A model generated the notes under the pieces. It was not told the DNA's origin. It ran no database searches and worked only from the letters and a program-made list of their open reading frames with translations. Positions 1-34,022 of a stretch of DNA of 53,059 nt are shown one piece after another. The stretch is from Chrysophaeum taylorii (taxonomy: Eukaryota > Sar > Pelagophyceae > Pelagomonadales > Pelagomonadaceae), in assembly GCA_029834535.1 (NCBI GenBank), contig JAQMWT010000056.1, positions 1 through 53,059 of the forward strand. The letters run 5' to 3'. The translations under genes were made by a program, and so were the position numbers. Numbering within the stretch: position 1 is the first letter of the stretch; each line of letters starts with the position of its first letter.

Positions 1-38
1 CCGCATCTCCTTCGGCACAGCTCGGCTCCAGTAGTCAA

Positions 39-266
39 TTACTCGTTCTTCTCCGAGTCACTCTTCCCGGCATCGTCCTTTACTTCGACATTTGGAGGGA
101 TAGGATATGCTCCCTCTAATCGGCATCCTTTGGGAAGCATACGATTCGGAAATCTGAAAGGCAGATCATAATCGGCGCGTGGTGTAACTCCACGGGAATC
201 AACCAAAGCTTCAATAATCGTATCCCAAGCTTTCTGACACTCGGGCGTCCACTCGAACTTTACACC
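39..266 (-). pseudogene. RT connection/RNase H remnant
   Basis: After a one-base frame change near 268, the minus strand continues GVKFEWTPECQKAWDTIIEA, the usual gypsy connection to RNase H. It ends at a TAA at 39-41. A further frame (bases ~1-55) reads VIDYWSRAVPKEMR, which resembles the RNase H segment before the conserved Tyr. So the RNase H continues off the left edge but is broken here. Confidence 0.65.
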
Positions 267-1557
267 TTCGAGGCATAATCAATCGTCTCAACGGTCCCGC
301 AATCTTCGAGTAGCCCTTCACATATCGCCGGCAGTAATTACTCATGCCGATGAAAGAGCGTATCTGGGTCTTCGGGGAAGTATTCGGCAAAGTACCTGGA
401 ATCGGCATCTTCTGCAGTGCTTCCAGCGTCTTTGGATTCGACTTCAAGCCTTCTGGGGTAGAAATGTGTCCCAGAAATTCTATATCATCTTTGAGAAGGT
501 GGAACTTCGCGGTTCGACCGCTGTACCCTCTCTGTGCCAAATGACACATCACTTCGATCAAAACTTGTAAATGTCGATGAAGATCGTCGGATCCCATCAT
601 AATATCGTCAACAAACGCAACCAAGTCTTGATACATCCATTTCGAAAGGTCGCTCGCCATTTGCTTGCAGAAAAGAGCTCCGGCTGTCTTCACACCTAGA
701 GGTAATCGCAAGAAACTGTGAGCGCCAAGTGGCCTAACCATCGTGACAGCGTCCTGCGCTGCCGGATCCAGACGAAGGTTGTGGTATCCCCACCTAATAT
801 CAATGCATGTCCGCCATCGTCTCATCGCGAGAAAGGCTAAAGCATCATCTTGTCGAATGTTTGGCCAACTGTCATTGACCAATTGATCGTTGAGCTGACG
901 TAAGTCAACTGCAGCACGGAACGCGTTTGACGTTCCAATCTCAGCTCCTTTCTTCGGAAGCATCAACACAGGAAAGCCCCAAGGTGAGTTGGCCGGACGA
1001 ATGACTCCATCCCGGCACCACTCGCTGATCTGCTTGCGGAGACACTCGAGTTTCGCAGGCGTCAATCGGTAGGGCGTCATCTTTATCGGCCGCGGATTCG
1101 CGTCTTTGAATCGTAGAGACACAGGAGGCGAGTCCACAGGTCTCATAATCGGGTCGAAAAAGGCCCAAGAATATTGCACACAGTGACGGAGCATCAGTTT
1201 CGCCTCGTCATCTAAGTGCGGATTGTCAGGAATTCCCAGCTCCTGCACAACCTTGTCAACTTCTTCCTTTGTAGGAATTTGAACTTTCATCGCTTCGTTG
1301 TCCTTGACATGCTCAGGAGTCTGCGGCAGTGGTGCACCCTCGGCATCGCGCGGCGCATCTCTCCATGGCACATCGAACTTTTTCTCGTATTTTAGTTTCA
1401 CTTCCGGGTGGCTTTTGTTGATCCTCTCGCCATTGACACGAACACTCGGCTCGCTCTTAATCTTCGGTTCCCGATCTCGCTCAGGATCTGGCGGAACGTC
1501 TAAATTTGGTTGTCGGGGGGGGCCCAGCAGAAGAAGCATGAGACGTCCCCGGCTCAT
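211..1557 (-). CDS. Ty3/gypsy reverse transcriptase
   Basis: Copies the element's RNA into DNA. The conserved RT blocks are in order: GVIRPANSPWGFPVLMLPKK, FRAAVDLRQLND, CIDIRWGYHNLRL, LPLGVKTAGALFCKQM, then the catalytic LVAFVDDIMMGS near residue 315, FLGHISTPEGL and IRSFIGMSNYCRRYV. The ORF enters from the upstream polyprotein by a one-base frame change near 1519-1526. Its last ~20 residues (after RRLIMP) are out of frame: the connection to RNase H continues one base further on. The start given is only where this frame opens; translation probably comes from the upstream ORF. Confidence 0.9.
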   Translation of the reverse strand: MSRGRLMLLLLGPPRQPNLDVPPDPERDREPKIKSEPSVRVNGERINKSHPEVKLKYEKKFDVPWRDAPRDAEGAPLPQTPEHVKDNEAMKVQIPTKEEVDKVVQELGIPDNPHLDDEAKLMLRHCVQYSWAFFDPIMRPVDSPPVSLRFKDANPRPIKMTPYRLTPAKLECLRKQISEWCRDGVIRPANSPWGFPVLMLPKKGAEIGTSNAFRAAVDLRQLNDQLVNDSWPNIRQDDALAFLAMRRWRTCIDIRWGYHNLRLDPAAQDAVTMVRPLGAHSFLRLPLGVKTAGALFCKQMASDLSKWMYQDLVAFVDDIMMGSDDLHRHLQVLIEVMCHLAQRGYSGRTAKFHLLKDDIEFLGHISTPEGLKSNPKTLEALQKMPIPGTLPNTSPKTQIRSFIGMSNYCRRYVKGYSKIAGPLRRLIMPRRCKVRVDARVSESLGYDY

Positions 1558-4500
1558 CTGTTGCAGGCGGAATCAACGGTACCTCTGGAGGTTTCCATTT
1601 GGTGCGATCTTGAAGATCATCAGTCGACACCCATCGTATGACACGTGTGCGCGTGTTTAACAGCGGAACTTGTACGTGACGAAGGGTGGTTTCATCAATT
1701 TGCAAATAATAATCAAACGGTCGGTCTGCAGGACTCAACGCTGACGGCAAAGCTTCGCCGCTCAGGTGAAATTCCTTGGTCACAGAGTTGTGCAGATCGA
1801 GCATTAATAAGGCCATCGTGTCAGGTGGCACGACGGACGCCAAGTGTTTCAACGAGGTCGTCCTGGCGAAGCCGGCCCAATCAAAATCAGGGGGCATCGT
1901 CAGCAACTCCGAAGTCATTTCCAGATTCAGAGATCTGTAATCGGAACGGTGCGGCCCTACGCGAAGCGGGACACGCGTAACAGTATAAGCTGCGTCTGTC
2001 GCGGCTCGTGATGATCCTAAATTATTCATCTGAAGTAAATGTCGTTCGTCGGCGTAGCCAAGTGCGGCGGCGAACTTGTGCTGCATATTCTTGCAAGTCT
2101 TGGGAACTGCGCGCAAATGGAGCGGATGGCTCGAAACCAACAAGCGCACGCGACAGCTCATCAAACTGGGAGTTATGTCGTAAAAGTTGACGACGTACAC
2201 GTAAGGGTGCAAACGTGCAACGTAAGAAATAATCGAAGCCTCCTGCTCTATCAACCACATGAAGAAACCAGCCATCTTGCATAATTTCATCGTCCAGTGG
2301 GTAGCGGTGACTCCCTTCCCAACATCTCTGGAAGTCAAGTTGCACAGAGCGGAGTGTACGCAGGGTGGCGACGCGACACACATCGACGACGACCATTCCG
2401 CGTAGGGTAAATAAGATTCGATCAACCGTAAGGTTGTAACATAGCGACCACACAATGTGTGCTGCACCACAGGAATATTCGGAAAGTTCTTGTGGTGGAT
2501 TTGGTTGGCGGTGTCCGACGCATCGAGTGCTAGCACGACTCGAAACGACGTCCCACACGTTTCGTTGGCTCGTTGGAGACCTAAAGTACTGCCTCCGGCT
2601 CCACTGAACAGCATCACCACCTTGCGATAAGTGATTGGAAGCCATTGAACCTTTTCATATCGGCGGCGGATCTCCGCTTCGGTGATCTCGCGGCATGTCT
2701 TTTCATCTTTTTCTGACCTTCGAGCGAAATCGTCGCTGCCTTCAGGTCGTTTGAGGGTGGACTTGTCCGTCATAGCGGTCATAGCGTCCTTCTGCACCGT
2801 GCTCAGCAGCATCGGCGGGGGAGATTCGTTGCATCGCGTCAAGTGACTAGCGACAGAAACGGTGAAAGAAAGGTTCCCCTTGTCGTATTCTTCTTCACAT
2901 TCTTTCGTAAGTTCGTTGATCGTAGAGACGTTCAACTCATCTTCGTACCTAACGATATCACCAATCGCAAGGGCTTCGCCTTGAGTGACGATCGTCGGCA
3001 CTTCTTCCGTGGCAGTGACTGCCACCCGAGCAGCGGACCGGTCGCGCTCTTCGCAAGAAGAACACATTCCTTCGACAACTCCCAACTGCTCGTTCTCAGC
3101 AAACGTAGCGACGAAAACCTGTCCTTTTTCCATAGGCTTCGACAAAATAACCGGTAGATTGTACGTTCGACCGGGCTCGATTTGAAGCGTGCGCGCGGCA
3201 TAAGCGATTACTTCTCGCGCGTCTTCTCCCGGAGCTGGGGAGAATTTGGTCGTAGCATGTCCCCGCGTAGCCATGGCTACCTTACGTTCCGGCGGCGGGC
3301 TTCGGAGATCTTTAATCGTGCTCAAACGAGCATAAACTCGAGTCTTGACCAGGTCGAGACTCTGCCGGAAGGCATCGTGTTGATGATTGTAAATTGGTAC
3401 GGTTATCGGATTTCGATCGTAAATAGCCCGAAAGGTCACGATTGGTGCATCGACTCGTTCACCCTTAACTTTAATCTTCTTGCGCCCGTAGACGACCTGG
3501 GTTCGACAAAAACAGATCCGATCATGGGGAAAATCCACGATGGCTCCTAAAACTCGTATATCGCGCCCTCCCAACAGGAACAGATAATTCGTATCGGCTA
3601 CAATAGCAACAATGGGGGCAGCGAAGTCGTCGGCGAAAGCGACCCGAAGGGTGATCCAACGATGGATCGTCGTCGTATTCAACCCTGACCCGTACAGCTT
3701 GCGCTTAATCGGAAGTTCGCCTTCATCGAGAATCAACTTATCTTTGGTCAACTTTTTGACCATTTCTCGGCAAATATAAGAAACATCTGCCATTCCATCG
3801 ACACCAATGGTCGTCGAGAATTTCGGTCCGTCACGATTCCTGTAGATGTGACAGGCCATAAACGTTAAAGTACCCGTATCTAAACAACTGAGGGTAATCA
3901 AATCATCTTCGATCGTCGTGCCATCTCGAGGCGTCAACGAAGTGTGAGCACATCGGGCTCTGAATCGCTCGTCTCCGGGGTTGGGCATCGATACCGCGGC
4001 TTGAGCTTTCGTATTATCTGTTGTTGGCGTCTTCGCCATAATGCTCGCGGCAGCCTCTTTATCTGGCGGCTTCCGCTCTTCCTCCAAGACAATCTTCGAG
4101 GGAATAAACGCTGGTAAGGGATCCTGGTATTCGTAGTCCTTGGAAGCAAACAACCCCTCCCATAAATCATTCATTTCGTCTTTCCAGAATGCATCTGTAA
4201 ATTCATTCGTCGCCTGCTGATCCTCATCAGCATCGGCGATCGGTTCCGTGTCAGCTGCGGCTTTGAGTCTGCAGCTGCGCGGTTGTTCTGGTGGCTTCTT
4301 CAGCAAGAAATTCCGAGCTTTCGTCCACCAATCCTGCAGGTTCCACGTCGGCTCGTCTTCGTCCCGCTTGAGAACGCTGCTTATCTTCTTCATGAATCTA
4401 TCCTTTTCTTCCGGCGGCGTATCCGTGTCTCGATCCGTAGTAATCGAAACCGTTTCGGGGGGGTCCGCAGGAAAAGATGGCGTCGTCCCCGACGTCAACT

Positions 4501-7063
4501 CTGTCGTAAAATCGTCGTCTGCAATACTCGCGCTTGTCATCGTCTCGTCAGTCGAATGCGCGCACGAGCTATCACTGCAGAAATTCATGTCTGGCTCACA
4601 GCCAGTTCGGTCGCCAGCGGTCGTCTCTGGAGGGTCCAAAGATAAGCCGATGGCATCGAGGGCTTCCTCATCAAAAATAAACGGTGGGTCGTCCATGGAC
4701 GACTCGTCAAATAACGTTAACGCAGACACTGGTTCACAAAGTGTAGCTTCTTCATCTTCCGAATCTGAATCGCCTTCCCAGTATCGTGTAGCTTCAAGTT
4801 CCTCGCTCGAATCTTCGAGCTCATCGCTCGACATCTGCTCATAAATCTGTGCCAAAGACCGACGATTGGTCAGCACGTCGTTGGGTGGCTCGTCCATCGG
4901 TGGGCGAGCAAGATCTTCGAATGCGGCCGCGGCAAGGGCGTCGGCTGCGTCGTCGGTGCGGGTGTCCTTGTTCGGGTACACCGCCACTCCTGATGGTAAC
5001 TGTTGACCGCAAGGGGTCGTAAATGCGAACGTTGCAGACGACTGTCCCGAGTCTTCTCGGTAACGACCATCGTCCGAATCTCGATCGCGAGATCTTCGTC
5101 GCCGGCGGCGGCGTGAATGTCTGCTAGAGCTCCTGCTATCTTTCCGTCGGCGCTGGCACGAGCTGCTACGGCTCTTGTCGTGGCGTCGGGGGCTCCGGCT
5201 ATCTCGACAGCCCGTTCGTGTCGAAGACGATCGGCCGTGTCCATCTGTTAAGTGCTGCACGGTACTCATAACCGTGGTTAGCTGCGTGCTCATATCATTG
5301 AGTCTGCTCTGAATATCGTGAGCAGCGCTCGAACCGAAGGTGGCATTAGAACTACCGTCGTCACGCGAATGATTATCTTTCCTTTGTCGGCTCTCCCATC
5401 GTCCTCGCGAAATGGGCTTTCTGCCGTTTTTGATGTATTTGCACATCGCTGCATAATAGTCGTCGGGCTCGCGGTTGCAAATGACGCGGCTCCCGTGTTC
5501 GTCTTTGTCGTGGGTCGCTAAGAAAAACCCACAGTCCTGGCACGTCCTCTCGAACCACTTTTTCGGATTCTCTTCGAGGCGTAAGGCTTCATATTTCGTC
5601 GTCTTATCTTTCGTTCCCGAGACGAGAGCTCGTCCTCCGCGTCCAGGCGGCGGCTTCTGCGGCTTCCCGCTCGAGGGGTTCATCGAGTTTCGGCTGTTCT
5701 TCTCCGCCATGGCTGTTGCGAAGTCGTTTTCGAGCCGCGTAATCAGCGACAACGTAGACGTAAACGTCTTATACGTCGTCGGGTGTCCGCTGCGCATCGT
5801 TCGCACGCGGGATTTCAATTCGCTGGACTCCAGTCCACGTATCAAGTAAGAGATGATCTCTACGTCGTTGAGATCTCGGTTGGCCACGGAACAGTATGCC
5901 ATGGCCTCTTGCTGAAATTTAATGCAATATGTATGCACGTGACGTTCTCCAGAGCGTTTCGGAACGGTCGCTTGGGTCGTGCATTGTAACTTTCGTAATG
6001 ATTCCTCGGCCGTCACCGGCAGCGGACAACTCTCTCGGAAACATTTCAAAATCTTGAGGCAATACTTCTCGTTCAATCGTCGTATCCGTCGTACCACAGA
6101 ACCGTACTCCTCATCGTCGATATCCCAACATAAATAGAAAGACGCTGGGTGATCGAGGTCTTTACACAGGTCTTCATATTTCTTTAAGTGTTCTCGAAAA
6201 ATCGGTGCGACCGTGTCGCGCAGGGTCGCGGGAAGCAGATATCGGAATTTCTCCAAGCTGAAATGGTCTTCGGCTAATGTACGCATCACCGCACCAGCAT
6301 CTAAATCGAACTGGTCCTGATCGCGTCCATCGAGAACCAGTTTAAAAGTTTCGGTTTTTAATCCAGAGGTTGATCGCCGCTCCTTGTTGCGATCGTGTTT
6401 AGCTAACGCGCTCGCGAGTCGATCCGTAAAACCCATCAAGAACTCCTGGGTGTCGATCTTTCCGGCTCCGCGCGTCTCCTCCTTTTCTTCTTCATCATCG
6501 TCTTCATAGCGCGGCTTTCTAGCTTTCGCGCGTGATCGTGTAGTCGGCGGCTCTTCCTCAGTTCGGGACTCCGGGCTGCTCGCTCGCCTTGATCGACTCG
6601 GCGTACGTAACTCGTCTCTTTCACGGGTCAACGAGCTTACTTGTTCCTGGAAGGTGTCCGCTCGAGCGTTGGCCCGGCGCAGTTGCTCTTTTAATTCTTC
6701 GTTCTCCTTCCGTTGTAGCCGTTCTTTTCGTTCGTTCTCTTCCCCTATTTGTTTTAAAAGTCGTTCTTGCGCGCGTTCGTTCTCTTCGCGTAATGCCCGC
6801 AAGTGAGCCTCGTAGAACTCATTCATTTTCGTTGCATCCGGGGGTTCTGCACGCGTTGACGGAGCTGTCGATCGTCCTCCCGCCGGTCTCTCCGTGGGCT
6901 TGTCGTAGTTGTAGTTTAGCTCTTCTTCCTCGTCACCTTCTGTATCGTGCTCTTCTTCATCGTCATCATTATCATCATCATCATTCCGCTCGTTCGTCTC
7001 ATCCTGACGGCTTGGCGGTTCTTCATATCGTAGCTGCTCGACGGCAGCATCATCGTCTTCCAT
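1481..7063 (-). CDS. Gag-protease-C5 DNA methyltransferase polyprotein (1860 aa)
   Basis: Starts at an ATG. Regions in order: acidic N-terminus; glutamate/arginine-rich coiled coil (about 90-150); gag-like region with a Cys/His cluster (TCQDCGFFLATHDKDEH, near 510-540); an arginine-serine block (about 605-680); a long acidic linker; a retroviral-type aspartic protease (GVDGMADVSYI near 1088 and LLGGRD near 1165); and a C5 cytosine methyltransferase (about 1475-1755). The protease has DGM where DTG is usual, so its activity is uncertain. The ORF ends 76 bases into the RT ORF and in a different frame. The switch falls at a run of eight C on the minus strand. Expected product: particle protein and enzymes for retrotransposition plus a DNA-modifying enzyme. 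The domain order is clear; function of the linkers is unknown. Confidence 0.88.
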   Translation of the reverse strand: MEDDDAAVEQLRYEEPPSRQDETNERNDDDDNDDDEEEHDTEGDEEEELNYNYDKPTERPAGGRSTAPSTRAEPPDATKMNEFYEAHLRALREENERAQERLLKQIGEENERKERLQRKENEELKEQLRRANARADTFQEQVSSLTRERDELRTPSRSRRASSPESRTEEEPPTTRSRAKARKPRYEDDDEEEKEETRGAGKIDTQEFLMGFTDRLASALAKHDRNKERRSTSGLKTETFKLVLDGRDQDQFDLDAGAVMRTLAEDHFSLEKFRYLLPATLRDTVAPIFREHLKKYEDLCKDLDHPASFYLCWDIDDEEYGSVVRRIRRLNEKYCLKILKCFRESCPLPVTAEESLRKLQCTTQATVPKRSGERHVHTYCIKFQQEAMAYCSVANRDLNDVEIISYLIRGLESSELKSRVRTMRSGHPTTYKTFTSTLSLITRLENDFATAMAEKNSRNSMNPSSGKPQKPPPGRGGRALVSGTKDKTTKYEALRLEENPKKWFERTCQDCGFFLATHDKDEHGSRVICNREPDDYYAAMCKYIKNGRKPISRGRWESRQRKDNHSRDDGSSNATFGSSAAHDIQSRLNDMSTQLTTVMSTVQHLTDGHGRSSSTRTGCRDSRSPRRHDKSRSSSCQRRRKDSRSSSRHSRRRRRRRSRDRDSDDGRYREDSGQSSATFAFTTPCGQQLPSGVAVYPNKDTRTDDAADALAAAAFEDLARPPMDEPPNDVLTNRRSLAQIYEQMSSDELEDSSEELEATRYWEGDSDSEDEEATLCEPVSALTLFDESSMDDPPFIFDEEALDAIGLSLDPPETTAGDRTGCEPDMNFCSDSSCAHSTDETMTSASIADDDFTTELTSGTTPSFPADPPETVSITTDRDTDTPPEEKDRFMKKISSVLKRDEDEPTWNLQDWWTKARNFLLKKPPEQPRSCRLKAAADTEPIADADEDQQATNEFTDAFWKDEMNDLWEGLFASKDYEYQDPLPAFIPSKIVLEEERKPPDKEAAASIMAKTPTTDNTKAQAAVSMPNPGDERFRARCAHTSLTPRDGTTIEDDLITLSCLDTGTLTFMACHIYRNRDGPKFSTTIGVDGMADVSYICREMVKKLTKDKLILDEGELPIKRKLYGSGLNTTTIHRWITLRVAFADDFAAPIVAIVADTNYLFLLGGRDIRVLGAIVDFPHDRICFCRTQVVYGRKKIKVKGERVDAPIVTFRAIYDRNPITVPIYNHQHDAFRQSLDLVKTRVYARLSTIKDLRSPPPERKVAMATRGHATTKFSPAPGEDAREVIAYAARTLQIEPGRTYNLPVILSKPMEKGQVFVATFAENEQLGVVEGMCSSCEERDRSAARVAVTATEEVPTIVTQGEALAIGDIVRYEDELNVSTINELTKECEEEYDKGNLSFTVSVASHLTRCNESPPPMLLSTVQKDAMTAMTDKSTLKRPEGSDDFARRSEKDEKTCREITEAEIRRRYEKVQWLPITYRKVVMLFSGAGGSTLGLQRANETCGTSFRVVLALDASDTANQIHHKNFPNIPVVQHTLCGRYVTTLRLIESYLPYAEWSSSMCVASPPCVHSALCNLTSRDVGKGVTATHWTMKLCKMAGFFMWLIEQEASIISYVARLHPYVYVVNFYDITPSLMSCRVRLLVSSHPLHLRAVPKTCKNMQHKFAAALGYADERHLLQMNNLGSSRAATDAAYTVTRVPLRVGPHRSDYRSLNLEMTSELLTMPPDFDWAGFARTTSLKHLASVVPPDTMALLMLDLHNSVTKEFHLSGEALPSALSPADRPFDYYLQIDETTLRHVQVPLLNTRTRVIRWVSTDDLQDRTKWKPPEVPLIPPATDEPGTSHASSAGPPPTTKFRRSARS
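1795..2640 (-). other. C5 cytosine DNA methyltransferase domain inside gypsy polyprotein
   Basis: Motif I is VVMLFSGAGGSTLGL (residue ~1484, the SAM-binding FxGxGG). Motif IV is VASPPCVHS, with catalytic Cys 1568 encoded at 2360-2362. Motif VI is MWLIEQE, where ENV is usual, so the Asn is replaced by Gln. Motif VIII is SCRVRLLV (the RxR motif). Motifs IX-X are LLTMPPDFDW and LASVVPPDTMALL. Order and spacing follow the Dcm/DNMT family. The target-recognition stretch between VIII and IX is short, about 80 residues. It lies between protease and reverse transcriptase in one open frame, so it would be made as part of the polyprotein. What it methylates cannot be read from the sequence. Confidence 0.87.
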
Positions 7064-7501
7064 ATCGGCTCTGGCTCGTTCTAGTCGGCCGAGATCAGAG
7101 CGGGTCCAAAATGGTTGAGTCGTCGTCGTTCTCGCGCTCCTTCGGCTCCGGAACTTCTAATCGTCCACGACACGCGTAATATCGTCGTTGCGTGCGTCTT
7201 CCACCGACAAATCTATCCGTGCGGTGGGCGGCAGAACTCGTCTCTGCCCGGCAAACAATGCCTTATCCGTGAGTTGCGATCTCACTCCGCTCGCCTGCGG
7301 CAGCGGTACCCGGGTTGCGCGTCGGTTAGCACCAAATCGCGCGTCGTCACTTCCGACGACAAACGTATCCGGCCGGGGAACTTTCCCACGGCAATGGTCC
7401 TTCTGGAATTCCTTGTCGGCGCGCTTGATCAGGGCGCGCACGGCTTGTCCGGACCGTGTAGAGAATGCAAGATGCACTAGTTCGCTGCGACCGATATAGT
7501 C

Positions 7502-7525
7502 GCTCGAATCTCATATCCTCCACCA
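7502..7525 (-). promoter_or_regulatory. Primer-binding site (tRNA 3' end complement)
   Basis: The minus strand reads TGGTGGAGGATATGAG and then ATTCGAGC, two bases after the LTR end. The plus strand therefore looks like the last ~22 bases of a mature tRNA: a T-loop-like TCGAAT, a stem, and a terminal CCA. TGG at the start and the spacing of 8 plus 5 bases to the T-loop fit a tRNA acceptor and T-stem. The particular tRNA is not identified; its acceptor 3' strand would be ATCCTCC. Confidence 0.7.
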
Positions 7526-7527
7526 CC

Positions 7528-7863
7528 TGTGGCGTAAGGAGAATTTTGGGGGCTACCTGGCGTGCCTTCGAATCCTGGCTCGCCGATCGCGTCCGTGCCC
7601 TTGGTGGGATCACTGGACGAGGATGGCCGTTCTCCCGCCACGCGACCACAAACAACTTCTGTGCTTGGTCCTCTCAACTTGAGGATCGGCTGTTGCTTTA
7701 TGATCAAGGATAATCCGAAATCAGAAATCAGGGTGACACATGTCACGGAAAAGGAAGATGATGTCAGAGAAAACTCTGACATCATCGGAACGGAGTCGGG
7801 TGCCCCTGATAAGGGGGGCCCTAGAAGAGGGGTAAGCCTTAGGAGGCGGGAGTTGCCGCCACA
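7528..7863 (-). repeat. 5' LTR of the methyltransferase-bearing gypsy element
   Basis: On the minus strand the segment begins TGTGGCGGCAACTCC and ends TTACGCCACA, so the two ends form a perfect 7-bp inverted repeat (TGTGGCG/CGCCACA). It starts TG and ends CA, as LTRs do. It is 336 bp long and is followed after two bases by a tRNA-like primer-binding site. The first ~45 bases resemble the LTR heads at 45569 and 46063, so these belong to one LTR family. The 3' LTR is outside the window, so identity between LTRs and target duplication cannot be checked. Confidence 0.8.
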
Positions 7864-9169: not shown

Positions 9170-11875
9170 TCACGCTTGCGCTGTTCCAAACATCTGTAGT
9201 CTCTCCCGGAGATAGTCGTCCTTTGCTCGCTCGTCGTCGAGAGCGTCCCACTCAAAGAACGGAATGTGGGCAACGTCCCAACCGAGCCGCCGCAACAATC
9301 GGGACTTGAAGCGCGTAGAGCCATTCTCAACCTTCGTTCCCTTGAGGTAGTGGTATGGCCCATCGACTTCGACGGCGCGCTTCGTGTCAGGTTGCGCAAC
9401 GTCGAGCGACAGTCCCTCTTCGGTCACGTGCTCGAAGATGTGCGGCGTCCAGCCAACTCGGTCGAGCGCGGTCGCAACGTCGCGCTGGAGTTGGGACGGT
9501 GATGGGTCCTGACGTTGATAAGCTAGCTGGAGCATCTGCTTGTGGTTTGAAAGCGCGGAGCTACGGTTGGGCCATTCAAGACTAAAGTGCAGCGAAGCAA
9601 GGTGGAGTTGCGACAGTCCACGATCACCGAGGGCATCCAGATCAGTGACAGCTCCCTGCGCGAGCTCGGCAAAAAACTCGGGGTCTATTTTCCAGTCGAC
9701 GCACGCAAATGCCCACGCGGTGTTGGCGAGGTCCTGCGGATTGAACTCGCCCATCCGCGATGAAGCCGCGCCGGGGATAGCCGCGAAGAGCTCAGGTGCC
9801 TCCATGCCTGTCGTCGCGAAAGCCCATGCCGTGTTGGTGAGGTCCTGCGGATTGAACTCATCCAGCCGCGAAGGAGCCGCGTCGGCGATCGCCGCGAAGA
9901 GCTGAGGTGCCTTGACGCCCGCCGTCGCGAAGGTCCACGCCGTGTTGGCGAGGTCCTGCGGTTTGAACTCGTCCAGCCGCGAAGCACCCGCGCCGGTAAT
10001 CGCCGCGAAGAGCGGAGGTGCCTCAACACTCGCCGTCGCGAAGGCCCACGCCGTGTTGGCGAGGGCCTGCGGATTGAACTCATCCAGCCGCGAAGGAGCC
10101 GCGTCAGCGATCGCCGCGAAGAGTTGAGGTGCCTCGACGCCCGCCGTCGCGAAGGCCCACGCCGTGTTGGCGAGTTCTTGCGGTTTGAACTCGCTAAGCC
10201 GCGAAGGAGCCGCGACAGCGATCGCCGCGTAGAGCTGAGGTGCCTCGACGCCCGCCGTCGCGAAGGCCCACGCCGTGTTGGCGAGAACCTGCGGATTGAA
10301 CTCATCCAGCCGCGAAGGAGCCGCGTCGGCGATCGCCGCGAAGAGTTGAGGTGCTGCGACGCCCGCCGTCGCGAAGGCCCACGCCGTGTTGGCGAGATTC
10401 TGCGGATTGAACTCGCCCACCAGCGAAGAAGCCGCGCCAGCAATAGCCGCGAAGAGCTTAGGTACCTTGACACTCGCCGTCGCGAAGGCCCACGCCGTGT
10501 TGGCGAGATTCTGCGGATTGAACTCGCCCACCCGCGAAGGAACCGCGTTGGCGATCGCCGCGAAGAGCTGAGGTGCCTCGACGCCCGCCGTCGCGAAGGC
10601 CCACGCCGTGTTGGCGAGCCCTTGCGAATTGAACTCGTCCAGCCGCGAAGCACCCGCGCCGGCAATCGCCGCGAAGAGCTTAGGTACCTTGACACTCGCC
10701 GTCGCGAAGGCCCACGCCGTGTTGGCGAGATTCTGCGGATTGAACTCGCCCACCCGCGAAGGAGCCGCGTCAGCGATCGCCGCGAAGAGTTGAGGTGCCT
10801 CGACGCCCGCCGTCGCGAAGGCCCACGCCGTGTTGGCGAGGTCCTGCGGATTGAACTCGCCCACCCGCGAAGGAACCGCGCCAGCGATCGCAGCGAAGAG
10901 TTGAGGTGCTGCGACTCCCGCCGTCGCGAAGGCCCACGCCGTGTTGGTGAGCCCTTGAGGATTGAACTCGCCCAGCCGCGAAGATGCCGTGCCGGCGATC
11001 GCCGCGAATAGCTCAGGTGCCTCGACGCCCGCCGTCGCGTAGGCCCAAGCCGTGTTGGCGAGCTCCTGTGCATTGAACTCGCCCACCCGCGAAGGAGCCG
11101 CGTCGGCGATCGCCGCGAAGAGCTGAGTTGCCTCAACGCCCGCAGTCGCGAAGGCCCACGCCGTGTTGGCGAGTTCTTGCGGTTTGAACTCGCTAAGCCG
11201 CGAAGGAGCCGCGACAGCGATCGCCGCGTAGAGCTGAGGTGCCTCGATGCGCGCCGTCGCGAAAGCCCACGCCGTGTTGGCGAGCTCCTGCGGCTTGAAC
11301 TCGCGAACACGGCGCCGACAAGCGTCCGCGAGGGCCATCAACCGGCGATCGCGTCGCACGTCGCGGCGTCGGCCTCCAAACTTGGCAACACGGTGCGCGG
11401 CAGTCGATAAATTAAGAGTGCTGAATTTGTCGCCTTGAGCCGCGAAGAGTGAAAGTATCGTCTCGGGAGTCGCACCGCGGCCCGTCATCTGCTTTCCCCA
11501 CTGTACTTGTTGCCATCGTGGTGCCTCGTCACTGATGGCTCTCGCGTGGCTCGCGTCGACGCTGAAACGGTCGTAGTGGCGGGCGTCGCCGCGGCGCTGC
11601 ATCTCACTCCATTGTTGCCCCGGCGAACCGCGTAAGTCTCGACCGTCGCGCCGCCAGTTGTCCCGTGCGCCAGGCAGTCGTCGCCTCGGCGACAGAGAAC
11701 GGTGCAATGGGTAGTCTCGACCATCGCACCGCGAGTCCTCGCGGCGCCCGTTGCGTGCGCGGTCAGGCATTCGACGTATCGGCAACTGCGAAAAGCGCTG
11801 GTAACGATCGGGGCGCCGCAGGTCGTCCTCCTGTCGATCAGCGTCGTCAAGCCACCATCGCTCGTAGGTAAACAC
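9170..11875 (-). CDS. Heptatricopeptide-repeat RAP-domain protein (organelle RNA-binding type)
   Basis: Probably binds organellar RNA. An arginine-rich N-terminus (~1-130) is followed by about 15 tandem 37-residue repeats with the core LANTAWAFATAGVEAPQLF (nt ~9690-11330). A C-terminal RAP domain follows (about 800-890), with VEVDGPYHY and LLRRLGWDVAHIPFFEWDAL. Repeat length and RAP tail match the heptatricopeptide (HPR) family described in apicomplexan mitochondria and seen in algae. The frame is open right up to the end of a Helitron-like element (base 11875), where only a GTG is available. The first ATG is at 11770 (866 aa product). The 5' end may therefore have been cut by the insertion. 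Repeat units are nearly identical in DNA, so copy number may vary. Confidence 0.88.
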   Translation of the reverse strand: MFTYERWWLDDADRQEDDLRRPDRYQRFSQLPIRRMPDRARNGRREDSRCDGRDYPLHRSLSPRRRLPGARDNWRRDGRDLRGSPGQQWSEMQRRGDARHYDRFSVDASHARAISDEAPRWQQVQWGKQMTGRGATPETILSLFAAQGDKFSTLNLSTAAHRVAKFGGRRRDVRRDRRLMALADACRRRVREFKPQELANTAWAFATARIEAPQLYAAIAVAAPSRLSEFKPQELANTAWAFATAGVEATQLFAAIADAAPSRVGEFNAQELANTAWAYATAGVEAPELFAAIAGTASSRLGEFNPQGLTNTAWAFATAGVAAPQLFAAIAGAVPSRVGEFNPQDLANTAWAFATAGVEAPQLFAAIADAAPSRVGEFNPQNLANTAWAFATASVKVPKLFAAIAGAGASRLDEFNSQGLANTAWAFATAGVEAPQLFAAIANAVPSRVGEFNPQNLANTAWAFATASVKVPKLFAAIAGAASSLVGEFNPQNLANTAWAFATAGVAAPQLFAAIADAAPSRLDEFNPQVLANTAWAFATAGVEAPQLYAAIAVAAPSRLSEFKPQELANTAWAFATAGVEAPQLFAAIADAAPSRLDEFNPQALANTAWAFATASVEAPPLFAAITGAGASRLDEFKPQDLANTAWTFATAGVKAPQLFAAIADAAPSRLDEFNPQDLTNTAWAFATTGMEAPELFAAIPGAASSRMGEFNPQDLANTAWAFACVDWKIDPEFFAELAQGAVTDLDALGDRGLSQLHLASLHFSLEWPNRSSALSNHKQMLQLAYQRQDPSPSQLQRDVATALDRVGWTPHIFEHVTEEGLSLDVAQPDTKRAVEVDGPYHYLKGTKVENGSTRFKSRLLRRLGWDVAHIPFFEWDALDDERAKDDYLRERLQMFGTAQA
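9690..11330 (-). repeat. 111-bp coding tandem repeat, ~15 units
   Basis: Each unit encodes 37 residues with the invariant NTAW. Units come in repeated groups. The first two units (ending ARIEAPQLY and AGVEATQLF) recur as units 10-11. A unit with ASVKVPKLF occurs twice (units 6 and 8). This block structure points to unequal exchange or gene conversion within the array. Confidence 0.9.
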
Positions 11876-11880: not shown

Positions 11881-12215
11881 CAGGCCAGTAAGTTCACCTA
11901 GTCCCAATCTCTAACCCCAGTAAGTTCACCTGGTCCCAGTAAGTTCACCTGGCCAGTAAGTTCACCTAGTCCAAATTTCTAACCCCAGTAAGTTCGGCGT
12001 AAACCCACTCGTGCTCACACCACTCCTTCGAGCTCGTCGCTGTCGCCTCCGCCAATCTAAGCTGCTTCGATCCGCACACGCCGCTAATCTTTGAGTTTAC
12101 TCTAAACCCCCCAGTAAGTTCACCTGGTCCCAGTAAGTTCACCTGGTCACTATGTTCACCTAGTCCCAATCTCAAACCCCAGTAAGTTCACCTGGTCTAA
12201 GTAAGTTCACCTACA
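11881..12215 (-). repeat. TGAACTTACTGG-type repeat array (copy A)
   Basis: About ten copies of CCAGTAAGTTCACCTGG (plus-strand view) occur, some separated by CTCTAACCCC-type spacers. One shared ~115-bp segment (about 12000-12115) interrupts them and is also present in copies B-E. The array lies between the helicase remnant and the element end, only bases away from the RAP gene start. Confidence 0.85.
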
Positions 12216-12800
12216 GTGCGCGTGTAGACGCCGGGAGGGGGCTTATCGGTATTGCGCAGCACGTGCGGGGTAGGGTGGAGTCGTCGACTCAGAAGAGCAT
12301 ATCCCCGGGGTTGCCGATCGACAGAGAGCCACGTAGAGCTGGACGTGACAGAAGACGGGCTTCGCCAAGAGGACGCCGACCTCGCGGGGCGTCTGGCCCT
12401 GGCTCTTGGTGATCGTTTGGCGTCGGCGGGCCTTAAGGGATACAGGTTGGAGGAGCCTCGGTGACAACGACACGATCGATCATGTATCTGGTACCGTTGC
12501 AGTGGCCGTGCGACGGGTCGAGGTTGCGAAGACTTTAAGCTCGCGATCAAAGTCAGCATGCCGTTGGTTGTCAGGGAGTTCAAAACTCGACTCTTGAGAG
12601 CGAGGCGTCGTCTTCCGACCCAACCTAGTCGGCCGAAAAGAACTCCGACGCCTCGTCTCCGGGAAAAAAAGGCCGCGGTCATGCGCGCGTTGTCAGCATC
12701 GACAACATCGTTTCGACGGGGCGTGAGAATGGCGCGCTGAAAGAGCCGCCGCGGGTCGTGGAAATAGTCTGCGAGGTCGCCGTGGACGGCTTGGAGGATC
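12216..12800 (-). pseudogene. Helitron/Pif1-type helicase C-terminal remnant (copy A)
   Basis: Pieces in different frames give GDLADYFHDPRRLFQRAILT, RNLDPSHGHCNGTRYMID, QTITKSQGQTPREVGVLLAK and CHVQLYVALCRSATP. These match the end of Helitron-type Pif1 helicases (NLDP..G.CNGTR; TI.KSQGQT; QLYVAL.R). Several frame changes separate them. The same frames are broken in the other copies, so the damage was already present in the amplifying master. Confidence 0.82.
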
Positions 12801-12928
12801 AATGCCTGGCTCTCGCGCCTACCTGATCCTTACTCTCGCGCCTACCTGATCCTTACCCTAAATCGGGGGACAAACAAACATGCTCCTCACACACACCCCC
12901 CTCTTACCAGTCGACGTTTAAAGACAAA

Positions 12929-13870
12929 CAAGTGCAGGCCAGTAAGTTCACCTAGTCCCAATCTCTAACCCCAGTAAGTTCACCTGGTCCCAGTAAGTTT
13001 CGTGAAAAATTTTTGAATAAGTTCACCTGGTCAGTAAGTTCACCTAGTCCAAATCTCTAACCCCAGTAAGTTCGGCGTAAACCCACTCGTGCTCACACCC
13101 ACTCCTTCGAGCTCGTCGCTCTCGCCTCCGCCAATCTAAGCTGCCTTGATCCGCACACGCCGCTAACCTTTGAGTTTACCCTAAAACCCCCAGTAAGTTC
13201 ATCTGGTCTCAGTAAGTTCACCTGGTCACTATATTCACCTAATCCCAATCTCTAACCTCAGTAAATTCACCTGGTCCCAGTAAGTTCACCTATAGTGCGC
13301 GTGTAGACGCCGGGAGGGGGCTTATCGGTATTGCGCAGCACGTGTGGGGTAGGGTGGAGTCGTCGACCCAGATGATTATATCCTCGGGGTTGCCGATCGA
13401 CAGGGAGCCACGTAGAGCTGGACGTGGCAGAAGACGGGTTTGGGCAAAAGGACGCCGACCTCGCGGGGCGTCTGGCCCTGGCTCTTGTTGATCGTTTGGC
13501 GTAGGCGGGCCTTAAGGGATACAGGTTGGAGGAGCCTCGGTGACAACGACACGATCGATCATGTATCTGGTACCGTTGCAGTGGCCGTGCGACGGGTCGA
13601 GGTTGCGAAGACATTAAGCTCGCGATCAAAGTCAGCATGCCGTTGGTTGTCAGGGAGTTGAAAACTCTACTGTAAAGAGCGAGGCGTCGTCTTCCGACCC
13701 AGCCTAGTCAGCCGAAAAGAACTCCAACGCCTCGTCTCCGGGAAGAAAAGGCCGCGGTCATGCGCGCGTTGTCAGCATCGACAGCATCGTTTCGACGGGG
13801 CGTGAGAATGGCGCGCTGAAAGCGCCGCCGCGGGTCGTGGAAATAGTCTGCGAGGTCGCCGTAGACGGCT
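12929..13870 (-). mobile_element. Helitron-like element, copy B (5' truncated)
   Basis: Its 3' end (GGCCTGCACTTG at 12929) joins copy A. The repeat array covers 12935-13292 and the helicase remnant 13300-13870. The copy stops abruptly at 13870, inside the helicase segment, where copia RT sequence begins. It shares frame breaks with the other copies. Confidence 0.7.
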
Positions 13871-15019
13871 TATGCAATGACGAGGGTGCGCCACAAGAAG
13901 ATCATCAACGACCAAAACGAGACGTAGAAGGACGGTAGAATTGAGCACGAGCTTGTAATGGCAAGTGTCACCAGATCCGCGGACGAAGCCACAGTCATTG
14001 ACGAGAAAGCGTGCCAAATAAAGCCGCCAATTACGACAAGCTTGTTTGCAACCATACCAAGAGCGACGGAGCGTGTAAATGATTTTGGAACCATCGGTGG
14101 GTTGGCGAGGAGCATAGCCTTCGGGTGGCCAGACATAGATGTCTTCGTCAATGGGAGCTTGAATAAAAGCGGAGCTGACATCCAACTTGTGCAAATCCCA
14201 GTCATGAACAGCGACAAAGGTTAGAAAGAAACGGATCGTGACGATGTTGGCAACCGGTGAGTAGGTGTCATGATAATCAATGCCGTGAACCTGGGTGTAA
14301 CCGCGGACGACTAGGCGAGCCTTGTACGATTCGAAGCGGCCAGAGTCATACTTCTTGCGGAGGATCCACTTGAGGGTACAAATGTTGCCAGAAAAAGTCG
14401 AAGGAAGGCGAATAACATCCCAGCAACCAAGCTGACCAAGAGAGCTGTATTCTTTAGCGATGGCTTGCAACCAGCCAGGACGCTCAGGATTGGTCGGAGC
14501 TAAAGCTTCACGTAAATGGGTGGAAGTAATAGTAGTTTCGTCAAGGTCTGAATACTGAGACATTTCTTCGGAAGCGGAGTAATAAGCGTGTGCATGGGGA
14601 TCAACAAGGGTGCTAGCTAAACAAAGGGGAAGGAAGACATAATGAACTAACAAACGAAAGCTAACAGAAGAGACATACAAAGAGTTACAGGAGGAAACAG
14701 AAGCGACAGAGGAAACAGAATCAACATCGTGACAGGAGGAAACAGAATCGACATTGCGTTGTTGACAAACGCCAGTATGAAAGTTTGTTGATTGTTGTAA
14801 CGCGCGTTGGTCGACTTTGCGCGGTCGGCCCCGTCTGGCGCGACTTTGTTTTGCACTTTCCTCAGGAGGTTTTGGGCTCTTTGGTTTTGTCGGCTCTGGT
14901 TTGCTCGACTTTGTTTTACACTTTCTGTTGTTTTCTCTCTTTGGTGCTCTTTTGCACTTTCTGTTGTTTTCTCTCTTTGGTGCGTCGGAGTTTATGAGCT
15001 CGTAGAATGGTCGGTTCAC
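13871..15019 (-). pseudogene. Ty1/copia reverse transcriptase fragment
   Basis: Conserved copia blocks are visible: KARLVVRGYTQVHGIDYHDT, LHKLDVSSAFIQAPIDEDIY, SWYGCKQACRNW and the catalytic LVLVVDDLLVAH. The frame continues past 13871 only into unrelated Helitron sequence, so the last third of the RT and RNase H are gone. Upstream residues are basic and low in complexity (KSSKPEPTKPKSPKPPEESA). The conserved region begins near 14600. Confidence 0.88.
14919..14991. repeat. 36-bp tandem duplication
   Basis: CACTTTCTGTTGTTTTCTCT recurs at 14919 and 14955, within the region upstream of the copia RT. A less regular array of GGGGCAACAG-type units follows at about 15065-15170. Confidence 0.8.
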
Positions 15020-29197: not shown

Positions 29198-29511
29198 CTT
29201 AACTACTAATCGACAGATGTTTGTCTGTTTGTTTGTTTGTTTGTCTGTCTGTCTGTCTGTCTGTCTTTAAATGTCGACTGCTAAGAGGGGGGGGTGTGTG
29301 TGGGGAGCATGAAGGATGTGGGTGGGTTTGTGGGGTATGAGGGATGTGCCTGACGGGCGGAGATAAGTACGCGGGACCTAGTCGGGGTCATCGTCTGTCT
29401 GTCTGTCTTTAAATGTCGACTGCTAAGAGGGGGGGGTGTGTGTGGGGAGCATGAAGGATGTGGGTGTCTGTCCCTCGATTTAGGGTAAGGATCAGGTAGG
29501 CCCGCGAGCCA

Positions 29512-30105
29512 CACATTGATCCTCCAAGCCGTCTACGGCGACCTCGCAGACTATTTCCACGACCCGCGGCGGCTCTTTCAGCGCGCCATTCTCACGCCCC
29601 GTCGAAACGATGTTGTCGATGCTGACAACGCGCGCATGACCGCGGCCTTTTTTTCCCGGAGACGAGGCGTCGGAGTTCTTTTCGGCCGACTAGGTTGGGT
29701 CGGAAGACGACGCCTCGCTCTTTACAGTCGAGTTTTGAACTCCCTGACAACCAACGGCATGCTGACTTTGATCGCGAGCTTAAAGTCTTCGCAACCTCGA
29801 CCCGTCGCACGGCCACTGCAACGGTACCAGATACATGATCGATCGTGTCGTTGTCACCGAGGCTCCTCCAACCTGTATCCCGTAAGGCCCGCCGACGCCA
29901 AACGATCACCAAGAGCCAGGGCCAGACGCCCCGCGAGGTCGGCGTCCTCTTGGCGAAGCCCGTCTTCTGCCACGTCCAGCTCTACGTGGCTCTCTGTCGA
30001 TCGGCAACCCCGAGGATATCCTCTTCTGAGTCGACGACTCCACCCTACCCCACACGTGCTGCGCAATACCGATAAGCCCCCTCCCGGCGTCTACACGCGC
30101 ACTGT
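29512..30105 (+). pseudogene. Helitron/Pif1-type helicase C-terminal remnant (copy C)
   Basis: Same pieces as in copy A: AVYGDLADYFHDPRRLFQRA, CNGTRYMID, QTITKSQGQTPREVGVLLAK and CHVQLYVALCRSATP, each in a different frame from the next. Confidence 0.8.
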
Positions 30106-30440
30106 AGGTGAACTTACTGGGACCAGGTGAACTTACTGGGGTTTGAGATTGGGACTAGGTGAACTTAGTGACCAGGTGAACTTACTGGGACCAAGTGAAC
30201 TTACTGGGGTTTTTAGAGTGAACGCAAAGGCTAGCGGCGTGTACGGATCAAAGCAGCTTAGATTGGCGGAGGTGAGAGCGACGAGCTCGAAGGAGAGTGG
30301 GGTGAGTGGATGTGAGCACGAGTGGGCTTACGCCGAACTTACTGGGGTTAGAGATTGGGACTAGGTGAACTTACTGGGACCAGGTGAACTTACTGGGGTT
30401 AGAGATTGGGACCAGGTGAACTTACTGGCGAACTTACTGG
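30106..30440 (+). repeat. TGAACTTACTGG-type repeat array (copy C)
   Basis: About ten units of AGGTGAACTTACTGGGACC with GGTTTGAGATTGGGACT spacers and the shared ~115-bp interruption (about 30212-30335). Confidence 0.85.
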
Positions 30441-30505
30441 CCTGGACTTGTCCTAACTACTAATCGACAGATGACAGACTGAGATGTTTGTCTGTCTGTC
30501 TGTCT

Positions 30506-31080
30506 GTAAATGTCGACTGCTAAGAGGGGGGTGTGTGTGGGGAGCATGAAGGATGTTTGTCTGTCTGTCTGTCTGTTTGTCTGTTTGTCTTTCTGTTTGT
30601 CTTTAAATGTCGACTGCTAAGAGGGGGGTGTGTGTGGGGAGCATGAAGGATGTGGGTGGGTTTGTGGGGTATGAGGGATGTGTCTGTTTGTCTTTAAATG
30701 TCGACTGCTAAGAGGGGGGTGTGTGTGGGGAGCATGAAGGATGTGGGTGGGTTTGTGGGGTATGAGGGATGTGCCTGTTTGTCTTTAAATGTCGACTGCT
30801 AAGAGGGGGGTGTGTGTGGGGAGCATGAAGGATGTGGGTGGGTTTGCGGGGTATGAGGGATGTGCCTGACGGGCGGAGATAAGTACGCGGGACCTAGTCG
30901 GGGTCATGTGCCTGTTTGTCTGTCTTTAAACGTCGACTGCTAAGAGGGGGGTGTGTGTGGGTTTGTCTTTAAATGTCGACTGCTAAGAGGGGGGTGTGTG
31001 TGCGGAGCATGAAGGATGTGGGTGGGTTTGTGGGGTATGAGGGATGTGCCTGACGGGCGGAGATAAGTGCGCGGGACCTA
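30506..31080 (+). repeat. Tandem array of the GTCGACTGCTAAGAGG module
   Basis: Module starts at about 30506, 30602, 30692, 30784, 30924 and 30968. Full units run TTTAAATGTCGACTGCTAAG ... GGGGAGCATGAAGGATGTGG ... GAGGGATGTGCCTGACGGGC ... CGGGACCTAGTCGG, about 90-140 bp. Further copies are at 29266 and 29408, and (inverted) at ~12900 and 43060-43085. Confidence 0.85.
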
Positions 31081-31219
31081 GTCGTCATCGCCGAGGCGTG
31101 GGGCAGGCGAAGAGAGGACGGGCCCCGCCCGTAGGTCGTACGCGTGCTGCCGCCGAACGTATGTGCGACGAAGGGTGACGTCCTGCTGGGATCGGGCGGC
31201 CTGGGTGGGGTGTGTGGGT

Positions 31220-31476
31220 AGGGTCGGATAAGAAAGTTCGTACGAGCCGTTAACTATGTTTCAGTTTGTACTAAGACATACTCAACGGATCGCTGAGCTA
31301 TGTTCATTTGTACTCAAGCAGTACGTGCCGCCACGCCGCGAGATCGTCGCGATGGAACTAGTCCCCATAGTGAAGTCGGCATCCTTTCGTCCCCTCACGC
31401 AAAAAAAGGAAAAAGCCCACGCGTTGTAGGACCCGTCGTTGCGGCGCGGGCTAGTCTCGTTTTCTTATCCGACCCT
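31220..31476. mobile_element. MITE-like insert with 16-bp inverted ends
   Basis: AGGGTCGGATAAGAAA at 31220-31235 is matched by its perfect inverse at 31461-31476, 257 bp overall. No ORF with a recognised domain. A TA occurs near both sides but no clean target duplication. It lies inside Helitron-like copy D. Confidence 0.45.
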
Positions 31477-31539
31477 TATAATGGGTTTGACCCTCGATTT
31501 AGGGTAAGGATCAGGTAGGCCCGCGAGCCAGGCAGGCAT

Positions 31540-32140
31540 AGATCCTCCAAGTCGTCTACGGCGACCTCGCAGACTGTTTCCACGACCCGCGGCGGCTCTT
31601 TCAGCGCGCCATTATCACGCCCCGTCGAAACGGTGTTGTCGATGCTGACAACGCGCGCATGACCGCGGCCTTTTTTTCCCGGAGACGAGGCGTCGGAGTT
31701 CTTTTCAGCCGACTAGGTTGGGTCGGAAGACGACGCCTCGTTCTTTACAGTCGAGTTTTCAACTCCCTGACAACCAACGGCATGCTGACTTTGATCGCGA
31801 GCTTAAAGTCTTCGCAACCTCGACCCGTCGCACGGCCACTGCAACGGTACCAGATACGATATTATATATATCATCGATCGTGTCGTTGTCACCGAGGCTC
31901 CTCCAACCTGTATCCCTTAAGGCCCGCCGACGCCAAACGATCACCAAGAGCCAGGGCCAGACGCCCCGCGAGGTCGGCGTCCTCTTGGCGAAACCCGTCT
32001 TCTGCCACTTCCAGCTCTACGTGGCTCTCTGTCGATCGGCAACCCCGAGGATATCCTTTTCTTGGTCGACGACTCCACCCTACTCCACACCTGCTGCGCA
32101 ATACCGATAAGCCCTCTCCCGGCGTCTACACGCGCACTAT
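31540..32140 (+). pseudogene. Helitron/Pif1-type helicase C-terminal remnant (copy D)
   Basis: Same broken frames as copies A and C. Differs by a short AT insertion (TATTATATATATC) near 31860, next to the CNGTRY-coding part. Confidence 0.8.
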
Positions 32141-32515
32141 AGGTTAACTTACTTGGACCAGGTGAACTTACTGGAACCAGGTGAACTTACTGGGGTTAGA
32201 GATTGGGACTAGGTGAACTTAGTGCCCAGGTGAACTTACTGAGACCAAGTGTGAACTTACTGGGGCTTTTAGAGTAAACGCAAAGCTTAGCGGCGTGTGC
32301 GGATCAAAGCAGCTTAGATTGGCGGGGGTGAGAGCGACGAGCTCGAAGGAGAGTGGGGTGAGTGGGTGCGGGTTTACGCCGAACTTACTGGGGTTAGAGA
32401 TTGGGTTTACGCCGAATTTACTGGGGTTAGAGATTGGGACTAGGTGAACTTAACGGGAACAGGTGAACTTGCTGGGGTTAGAGATTGGGACTAGGTGAAC
32501 TTACTGGAACTACTG
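32141..32515 (+). repeat. TGAACTTACTGG-type repeat array (copy D)
   Basis: About ten to twelve units with the shared interrupting segment (~32270-32375); some units have point changes (e.g. GTTAACTTACTTGG). Confidence 0.82.
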
Positions 32516-32525
32516 GCCTGCACTT

Positions 32526-33562: not shown

Positions 33563-33925
33563 TACCCTAACCCTGCGATCGCTAACCGTTGGTTGCGATG
33601 GAGGACGGCGCCTAACACGCTTGCTCCCTGCGGCGGCCCCGGCCGTCCCGGAGTGAGACGGTGCCTGCTCGCCTCCCGGGCTGGCCGGTTAGCACCCGGA
33701 AAGTCCGCGCTGGGATGGGGTTCGCTCGGTTGGGCAGAACGTGACGGGCAGGTCGATTGTTCGTGGACCAACACGTTTGCGGCCTGCGACGCTCTTGCAC
33801 GACTTCGCACAAGACCGCGCGCAGTGGCGGTCCGTCATCAACGAGTCCTCGTCCTTCGCCTCTGCCCCAACTGCGTGATTTTCCTCTGTGATTCCGGATC
33901 GACTCCTGCCTGTCCGGCGAACACA
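33563..33925. repeat. Dispersed GC-rich repeat, copy 2
   Basis: Related to 20337-20665 (shared GGTTGCGATGGAGGACGG, CTCGCCTCCCGGG, CTGGCCGGTTAGCA-like and GATTCCGGA). Its left edge (TACCCTAACCCTGCG) falls exactly where the gag homology stops. Confidence 0.6.
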
Positions 33926-34008
33926 TTGTCGCATTGTACTCGTGATCAGGCGTAAATTGATCACTCCATTTATACGTACAACACAGTTGGGCTGACACAC
34001 CTACGCAT

Positions 34009-34022
34009 CTGGGCCCATAACC
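34009..34022 (-). promoter_or_regulatory. Copia-type primer-binding site (initiator tRNA-Met anticodon arm)
   Basis: The minus strand reads GGTTATGGGCCCAG straight after ...CTCTCCA. This is the exact complement of the eukaryotic initiator Met-tRNA anticodon arm (CTGGGCCCATAACC), the half-tRNA primer used by Drosophila copia and yeast Ty5. The preceding CA would be the LTR end. Confidence 0.7.

Follow-up and report, generated by a model that had tools for sequence, protein, structure and literature searches.

The window analysed here is contig 56 (JAQMWT010000056.1; 53,059 nucleotides) of the 70.8-Mb genome assembly of Chrysophaeum taylorii (GCA_029834535.1). Its left end is occupied by a Ty3/Gypsy long terminal repeat (LTR) retrotransposon, which lies on the minus strand, is truncated by the contig start and carries a C5 cytosine methyltransferase-like domain between a protease-like stretch and the reverse transcriptase. 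The 5' LTR (7528..7863, minus strand, as are all parts of the element given below) measures 336 bp in relatives, has the ends TGTGGC...GCCACA and shares 97.3% identity with the LTR of a contig-5 copy whose own LTR pair is 100% identical. A candidate primer-binding stretch (GGTGGTGGAGGA...; 7496..7527) lies immediately inside it, and begins in the same way in eight of the nine other copies compared, being shifted in the ninth (L041). The Gag-like and protease-like parts and the methyltransferase share an open frame of 1860 residues (1484..7063), as originally predicted. The putative Gag is assigned from position and composition, and the putative protease (residues 1061-1173; 3545..3883) from motifs found by eye, namely LDTG (3860-3883), VDGMADVSYI (3773-3802) and FLLGGRDIRVLG (3545-3580); a Pfam scan of the window polyprotein named neither Gag nor protease. 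The methyltransferase-like domain itself extends over 1694..2701 (residues 1455-1790) and is thus narrower than the interval of 1481..3900 in which it had correctly been placed. The reverse transcriptase (448 residues; 211..1557; RVT_1, 7.6e-13) is encoded in a different frame that overlaps the long one by 77 bases, stop codon counted, and is the only Pfam domain of the gypsy order in the window copy. The start of RNase H (1..210) is out of frame and is truncated where the contig begins; the remaining RNase H and the integrase are seen in a copy on contig 5 (L049).

Likeness to C5 methyltransferases is found in residues ~1481-1760 of the long frame. The Pfam profile PF00145 (curated cut-off 22 bits) matches the whole protein at E 3.1e-5 and 24 bits, over profile positions 2-51 (motif I only), and the methyltransferase piece at E 1.4e-5 and 25.2 bits, again over motif I only; the NCBIfam profile dcm reaches E 0.017, far under its cut-off. 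The motifs that come after motif I (FSGAGG; 2591..2608) occur in the correct order. These are motif IV (ASPPCVHS; 2351..2374), with SPPC at residues 1565-1568 and its cysteine at position 1568 as foreseen; motif VI (IEQEAS; 2234..2251; IEQE at residues 1605-1608), with Glu 1606 kept and Asn replaced by Gln; motif VIII (SCRVRLL; 2138..2158; SCRVR at residues 1636-1640), with Arg 1638 and Arg 1640; and motifs IX (NLEMTSELLTMPPDF) and X (HLASVVPPD), which share the interval 1820..1927 (residues 1713-1727 and 1740-1748). The original prediction had all diagnostic motifs in place, and this stands for their order, whereas motifs VI (EQE), VIII (SxRxR) and X (LASVVPP) are altered. When the residues following motif I were shuffled 200,000 times, [AGS]PPC fell in place in 275 cases and never together with E[NQ] and xRxR, a result that serves as a guide only, the patterns having been picked with the sequence known. 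A single-sequence AlphaFold model of the domain had a pLDDT of 32 and was not used.

Copies, clades and selection

Because the PF00145 match of the window copy is restricted to motif I, relatives were sought within the genome. A search with the entire polyprotein listed 35 rows of matches from the 25 places scored among 3177 candidates, and the methyltransferase alone matched at 120 of 120 scored places (78-100% identity; 1054 candidates), which is a lower bound on the matches. Contigs 25 and 521 carry the same genes at near-identical positions, perhaps because they represent two haplotypes or because a contig is duplicated, and the copy counts may be inflated as a result. The search for full-length copies that had been proposed yielded L049, in which a single frame of 3063 residues comprises Gag-like, protease-like, methyltransferase, reverse transcriptase, RNase H and integrase parts, with RVT_1, RNase H, Integrase_H2C2 and rve recognized by Pfam behind the methyltransferase in gypsy order; a second methyltransferase match on contig 5 sits in a frame of 3067 residues. 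Reverse transcriptase is present in 13 of the 14 loci compared. It lies in the final frame of the methyltransferase over the matched length in L038, L042, L048 and L049, begins in that frame and then shifts in L037 and L040, begins in a different frame in the window, L039, L045, L046 and L047, and is mixed in L041 and L043. Conversely, four reverse transcriptase places outside the methyltransferase match list, three of them picked for long frames, all have the methyltransferase. On contig 5, the LTR pairs have TG...CA ends; the two LTRs of one copy agree at all 336 bp and those of the other at 98.3% of the 302 bp compared, from which the family appears to have moved recently; no target-site duplication was seen at either copy. 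A second gypsy fragment, an integrase end with DNA 76% identical to that of L049, lies in the window at 46023-47625.

A sister clade (clade B) has the methyltransferase directly before the reverse transcriptase in all three loci (L062, L063 and L064), with PF00145 matches of E 1.8e-9, 1.6e-8 and 8.8e-9 (37.9, 34.8 and 35.7 bits) respectively; the best stretch comprises motifs IX-X in L062 and L064 and motifs I-IV in L063. A further locus, L065, scores 26.2 bits. Searched with clade B methyltransferase, the genome gave 127 rows (119 scored of 931 candidates), some of which are pieces of one copy. Clades A, which includes the window copy, and B are 38-39% identical in the methyltransferase and 61-63% identical in the stretch before and at the start of the reverse transcriptase, and match weakly or not at all in the protease part. 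Since the position before the reverse transcriptase is common to both clades, the methyltransferase was probably acquired once, before they split. An artefact, either a misassembly joining two loci or a chance methyltransferase-like stretch, might be suspected from a window copy that ends at the contig start, is frameshifted relative to its reverse transcriptase and scores barely over the Pfam cut-off. With the same order on many contigs and 35-38 bits in the sister clade, its probability is negligible, and both forms were rejected; profile searches do find a C5 methyltransferase match, and the many copies exclude the misassembly that the original prediction had itself raised.

The motifs were compared across copies, and damaged sequences were left out of the alignments where needed: A1 excludes L037 (stop) and L042-L045, L048 and L061 (stops or broken frames), and A2 excludes L007 and L023. 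All 15 copies of A1, among them the window copy, match PF00145 with E values of at most 1 and as low as 3.3e-6. In A3, which holds nine sequences from both clades, the motif I Gly, the PPC of motif IV and both motif VIII Arg residues are identical in 9/9. Motif VI has Glu-Gln in all nine, against the textbook Glu-Asn-Val, so the predicted Asn-to-Gln change is real and family-wide; the residue that follows is Glu, or Gly in L065 and L043 and Asp in L061, the last read with its stops as X. The Gln of the textbook QxRxR in motif VIII is replaced by Ser or Cys, and motif X reads LASVVPP in clade A (Ala-Ser for Gly-Asn) and MLGSMVPP in clade B. The catalytic Cys, Glu and Arg-x-Arg are retained in nearly all copies. 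From these matches and motifs we conclude that the domain, although divergent, is a genuine methyltransferase of the C5 type, whose departures from the textbook motifs, as aligned, are family-wide and not decay of the window copy.

The methyltransferase is under purifying selection about as strong as that on the reverse transcriptase. The pooled ratio of nonsynonymous to synonymous substitution rates (dN/dS) is 0.288 for the methyltransferase piece in 12 copies (core 0.267; flanks 0.394 and 0.291) and 0.273 for the reverse transcriptase in nine; the protease part and the C-terminal Gag, in 12 copies, have 0.428 and 0.546. L044 (cut by a contig end) and L048 (two frames) were excluded for the methyltransferase and L037, L041, L043 and L047 (split or divergent) for the reverse transcriptase, and stops were read as X in the methyltransferase of L037, L042 and L045, the protease part of L045 and the reverse transcriptase of L040 and L045. 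Between subfamilies, the methyltransferase dN/dS is 0.046-0.077 at a dS of 1.6-2.8, which is near saturation. For L065/L058 the ratio is 0.12; for L062/L063, which are almost identical, it is 0.63 at a dS of 0.008, with too few changes to weigh. Its low dN/dS, near that of the reverse transcriptase, indicates that the methyltransferase is maintained; as the domain is kept about as carefully as the copying machinery, the element seems to need its own methyltransferase.

Host and Copia-borne methyltransferases

PF00145 matches at least 57 places in the genome (123 scored of 474 candidates), and the window methyltransferase is not among them. The 32 places identified are a host DNMT2, a host DNMT5 and 30 Copia-borne genes; neither DNMT1 nor DNMT3 is among these 32, a count that stands apart from 25 lower-scoring places. 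The two host genes are the best PF00145 matches of the genome. DNMT2 (L035:3822-4901) matches the Protein Data Bank (PDB) entry 1g55 at E 3.9e-39, and DNMT5 (L033:6468-9899; an open frame of 2086 residues) matches 7r76 at E 1.6e-159, which is labelled Rad8 in the PDB file and which we take to be the Cryptococcus Dnmt5.

One methyltransferase type accounts for all 28 other fetched loci and two further places (L032 and L034). RVT_2 in two of the three long frames tested identifies its carrier as a Copia element, with L031:3597-9452 (contig 96) and L032:704-6307 (contig 314) encoding both RVT_2 and the methyltransferase. In L031, the methyltransferase (residues 349-475) is followed by a weak integrase match (residues 1016-1110; 17.2 bits, under the 32.6 cut-off) and then by RVT_2. 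The Copia methyltransferase has the motifs LPCQHLS, ENVPPN and SKTRYLAV and a median dN/dS of 0.166 (range 0.097-0.64; 91 pairs from 14 copies, with stops in L007 and L023 read as X). Up to 55 of the 57 PF00145 places may belong to this type, 30 having been checked. Like the gypsy family, these elements carry a C5 methyltransferase in an LTR polyprotein under strong purifying selection; they differ in being RVT_2 elements, in placing the methyltransferase before the weak integrase match (L031) and in a methyltransferase sequence without a visible link to the gypsy one, profile comparison having given 0.4% and 0.1%. The two methyltransferases may therefore represent separate captures, which is suggested and not firmer because so few columns can be aligned. 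The window also contains a Copia reverse transcriptase (13772-15019; RVT_2, 4.6e-34), and DNA at 13872-14721 recurs at 95% identity next to a gypsy copy on contig 5.

Outside this genome, candidates, up to a maximum number, were picked by shared words and length from a set of 5.8 billion proteins. No relative of the gypsy methyltransferase was found at E<=0.001 among 4286 candidates, none of the Copia methyltransferase among 8000 and none in viral contigs. A shorter query combining methyltransferase and reverse transcriptase matched seven of the 8000 proteins scored, with 24-29% identity across 34-41% of the query length; the Pfam lists have RVT_1 in all seven and PF00145 in none. A broader interpretation holds that Gypsy and Copia elements captured different C5 methyltransferases independently, that the transposon enzymes, in hundreds of copies, are the sole source of de novo cytosine methylation in a host whose own C5 methyltransferases, as so far identified, are DNMT2 and the maintenance-type DNMT5, and that the gypsy enzyme is a new, transposon-only Glu-Gln lineage; taken as a whole, this is doubtful.

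Affinity, substrate and possible function

The preferred reading, to which a probability of about 0.6 is given, is that a Ty3/Gypsy family acquired a C5 methyltransferase between its protease-like part and its reverse transcriptase before its two clades split, has kept it under selection and uses it to methylate its own complementary DNA (cDNA). The identity, architecture and selection of the domain are held with high confidence, DNA (the cDNA) is somewhat favoured over RNA as the substrate, and a benefit to the element through self-methylation is put forward tentatively, at a little below even odds. Enzymatic activity is predicted from the kept catalytic residues. The methyltransferase would be released from the polyprotein or work within it, and would be packaged with the reverse transcriptase in the particle. 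In or near the reverse-transcription complex, it would methylate cytosines in newly made cDNA or in a recent insertion, and the methylated element might then resemble host DNA and escape attack or editing. DNMT5 is a maintenance-type enzyme in fungi, and the host DNMT5 could subsequently maintain symmetrical CG marks.

Several observations weigh against this reading. The full-length copy L049 scores 18.4 bits for PF00145, under the 22-bit cut-off. Expressed in yeast, KnitGypsy-Dnmt3, the methyltransferase of a published algal Gypsy element, gave no methylation, a result that its authors describe as inconclusive; isolated SymbioDIRS DNMTs did methylate CG de novo in yeast and provide a precedent for activity of a retrotransposon-borne enzyme (de Mendoza 2018; PMC5890265). 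Because motifs VI (EQ), VIII (S/CxRxR) and X (LASVVPP in clade A) deviate in the aligned copies, the domain might be non-catalytic, a methyltransferase fold kept in a structural or regulatory role for binding nucleic acid or S-adenosylmethionine. Two single copies have lost a catalytic feature, with Glu replaced by Lys in motif VI of L054 and motif IV reading SPLC in L057, one of eight copies added to the motif comparison. This explanation is quite improbable, given that the catalytic Cys and Glu are identical throughout A3 along with both Arg and the motif I Gly, that the motif changes are fixed within clades and not due to decay, and that selection is strong.

The target is less clear-cut. 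The gypsy copies lack a CpG footprint, with C>T changes at 0.0124 for CG against 0.0168 for CH and G>A changes at 0.0202 for CG against 0.0224 (12 copies), and the element has a CpG observed/expected ratio of 1.3-1.4, both of which argue against resident copies being heavily methylated at CG. In Copia elements, the rate at CG is higher for C>T (0.081 vs 0.053) but lower for G>A (0.024 vs 0.053), so there is no symmetrical excess. Absence of a CG mutational excess, together with the CpG ratio, would fit an RNA or primer-tRNA target, and the best, though weak, sequence affinity of the gypsy methyltransferase is likewise to DNMT2, a tRNA enzyme. All three PDB matches of the window methyltransferase are DNMT2-type (E 0.045-1.4), as are both C5 matches of the A1 profile (E 0.14-0.15). 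Host DNMT2 matches the gypsy methyltransferase at 2e-4 in blastp and with 48% probability in hhalign, over 145 columns spanning motifs I-VIII; host DNMT5 and Escherichia coli Dcm reach 0.1% and 1.3%, respectively. The enzyme may thus be DNMT2-like in its N-terminal half and methylate element RNA or a primer tRNA, aiding packaging or the priming of reverse transcription.

This alternative is considered unlikely, though it carries real weight. The scores for DNMT2 affinity are all weak, and the sole PDB match of L062 in the sister clade is a different C5 enzyme (8yf3; E 0.042). The CFT...YxxGTGS stretch specific to DNMT2 is present in the host DNMT2 and absent from the gypsy methyltransferases in A3, and motif VI is ENV in DNMT2 and EQ in the gypsy enzyme. 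One pattern search for the primer tRNA, built on the primer-binding stretch of the window, gave no match. About 150 columns can be aligned between the gypsy methyltransferase and eukaryotic DNMTs, and DNMT3 was absent from its PDB matches. Judged by its sequence, the gypsy methyltransferase shows no visible link to any of the named families of DNA-methylating enzymes.

Published systems and significance

Retrotransposons bearing DNMTs have been published from Symbiodinium (LINE and DIRS) and from Klebsormidium nitens (Gypsy), and the same source describes Symbiodinium Copia elements as lacking any DNMT domain (de Mendoza 2018; PMC5890265). The Gypsy precedent invoked by the original prediction is therefore sound, whereas its dinoflagellate Copia is a misquotation, the elements reported there being LINE and DIRS. 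A single sentence in PMC12344493 assigns DNMT3 to elements that it calls 'LTR Copia and DIRS', with a citation of de Mendoza 2018, where Gypsy is reported (PMC5890265), and an opinion article refers without detail to Gypsy and DIRS elements of stramenopiles, red algae and green algae that bear DAM and DCM (PMC6338049); both passages cut against novelty. KnitGypsy-Dnmt3, like the present family, is an LTR Gypsy element with a C5 methyltransferase in its Pol polyprotein, intronless copies and purifying selection on the methyltransferase (Ka/Ks < 0.2 in the published case; PMC5890265). It differs in that its methyltransferase is Dnmt3-type, its LTRs are described as a DIRS-like arrangement, unlike the simple TGTGGC...GCCACA repeats found here, and its host has a land-plant-like set of enzymes in place of the DNMT5 and DNMT2 identified here (PMC5890265). 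As no Dnmt3 likeness was detected here while the published gypsy methyltransferase is Dnmt3, this gypsy lineage may represent the independent capture that had been proposed for it. SymbioDIRS-Dnmt3 and SymbioLINE-Dnmt share with it the presence of hundreds of retrotransposon-borne DNMTs per algal genome and differ in element class; the SymbioLINE DNMTs form an orphan lineage, as the gypsy methyltransferase may also do (PMC5890265).

The host was predicted to be an alga, which is borne out by 84 PF00504 (light-harvesting protein) matches genome-wide; contigs 88 and 539 carry tandem arrays of such genes, five each. Elsewhere in the window, a frame of 901 residues (9170-11875) contains a RAP domain and 37-residue tandem repeats spaced at 111 bp, with FAST_1 and DUF1601 matches, while inverted repeat units that are 92-98% alike and contain many GTGAACTTACTGGG-type motifs lie at 12020-13871 and 29482-35937. 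At least eight rows on contig 696 match RVT_1 and probably represent group II intron maturases, which would make it an organelle contig.

A literature search, covering titles and the starts of abstracts, turned up no publication describing a methyltransferase borne by gypsy or Copia elements in a DNMT5-type alga. As far as the searches went, the new features are the kind of host (an alga that has DNMT5 and DNMT2), a methyltransferase with an altered motif VI and no visible likeness to Dnmt3, and the occurrence of two gypsy methyltransferase clades plus a Copia methyltransferase family in the same genome. Similar domains are probably being missed in other genomes, because the window family stands barely over the Pfam cut-off. 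Retrotransposons are normally the victims of cytosine methylation. Another type of host with LTR-borne, preserved methyltransferases in two element classes at once would show that elements capture such enzymes repeatedly and benefit from them, and the compact 70.8-Mb genome of C. taylorii is suited to asking what the methyltransferase does.

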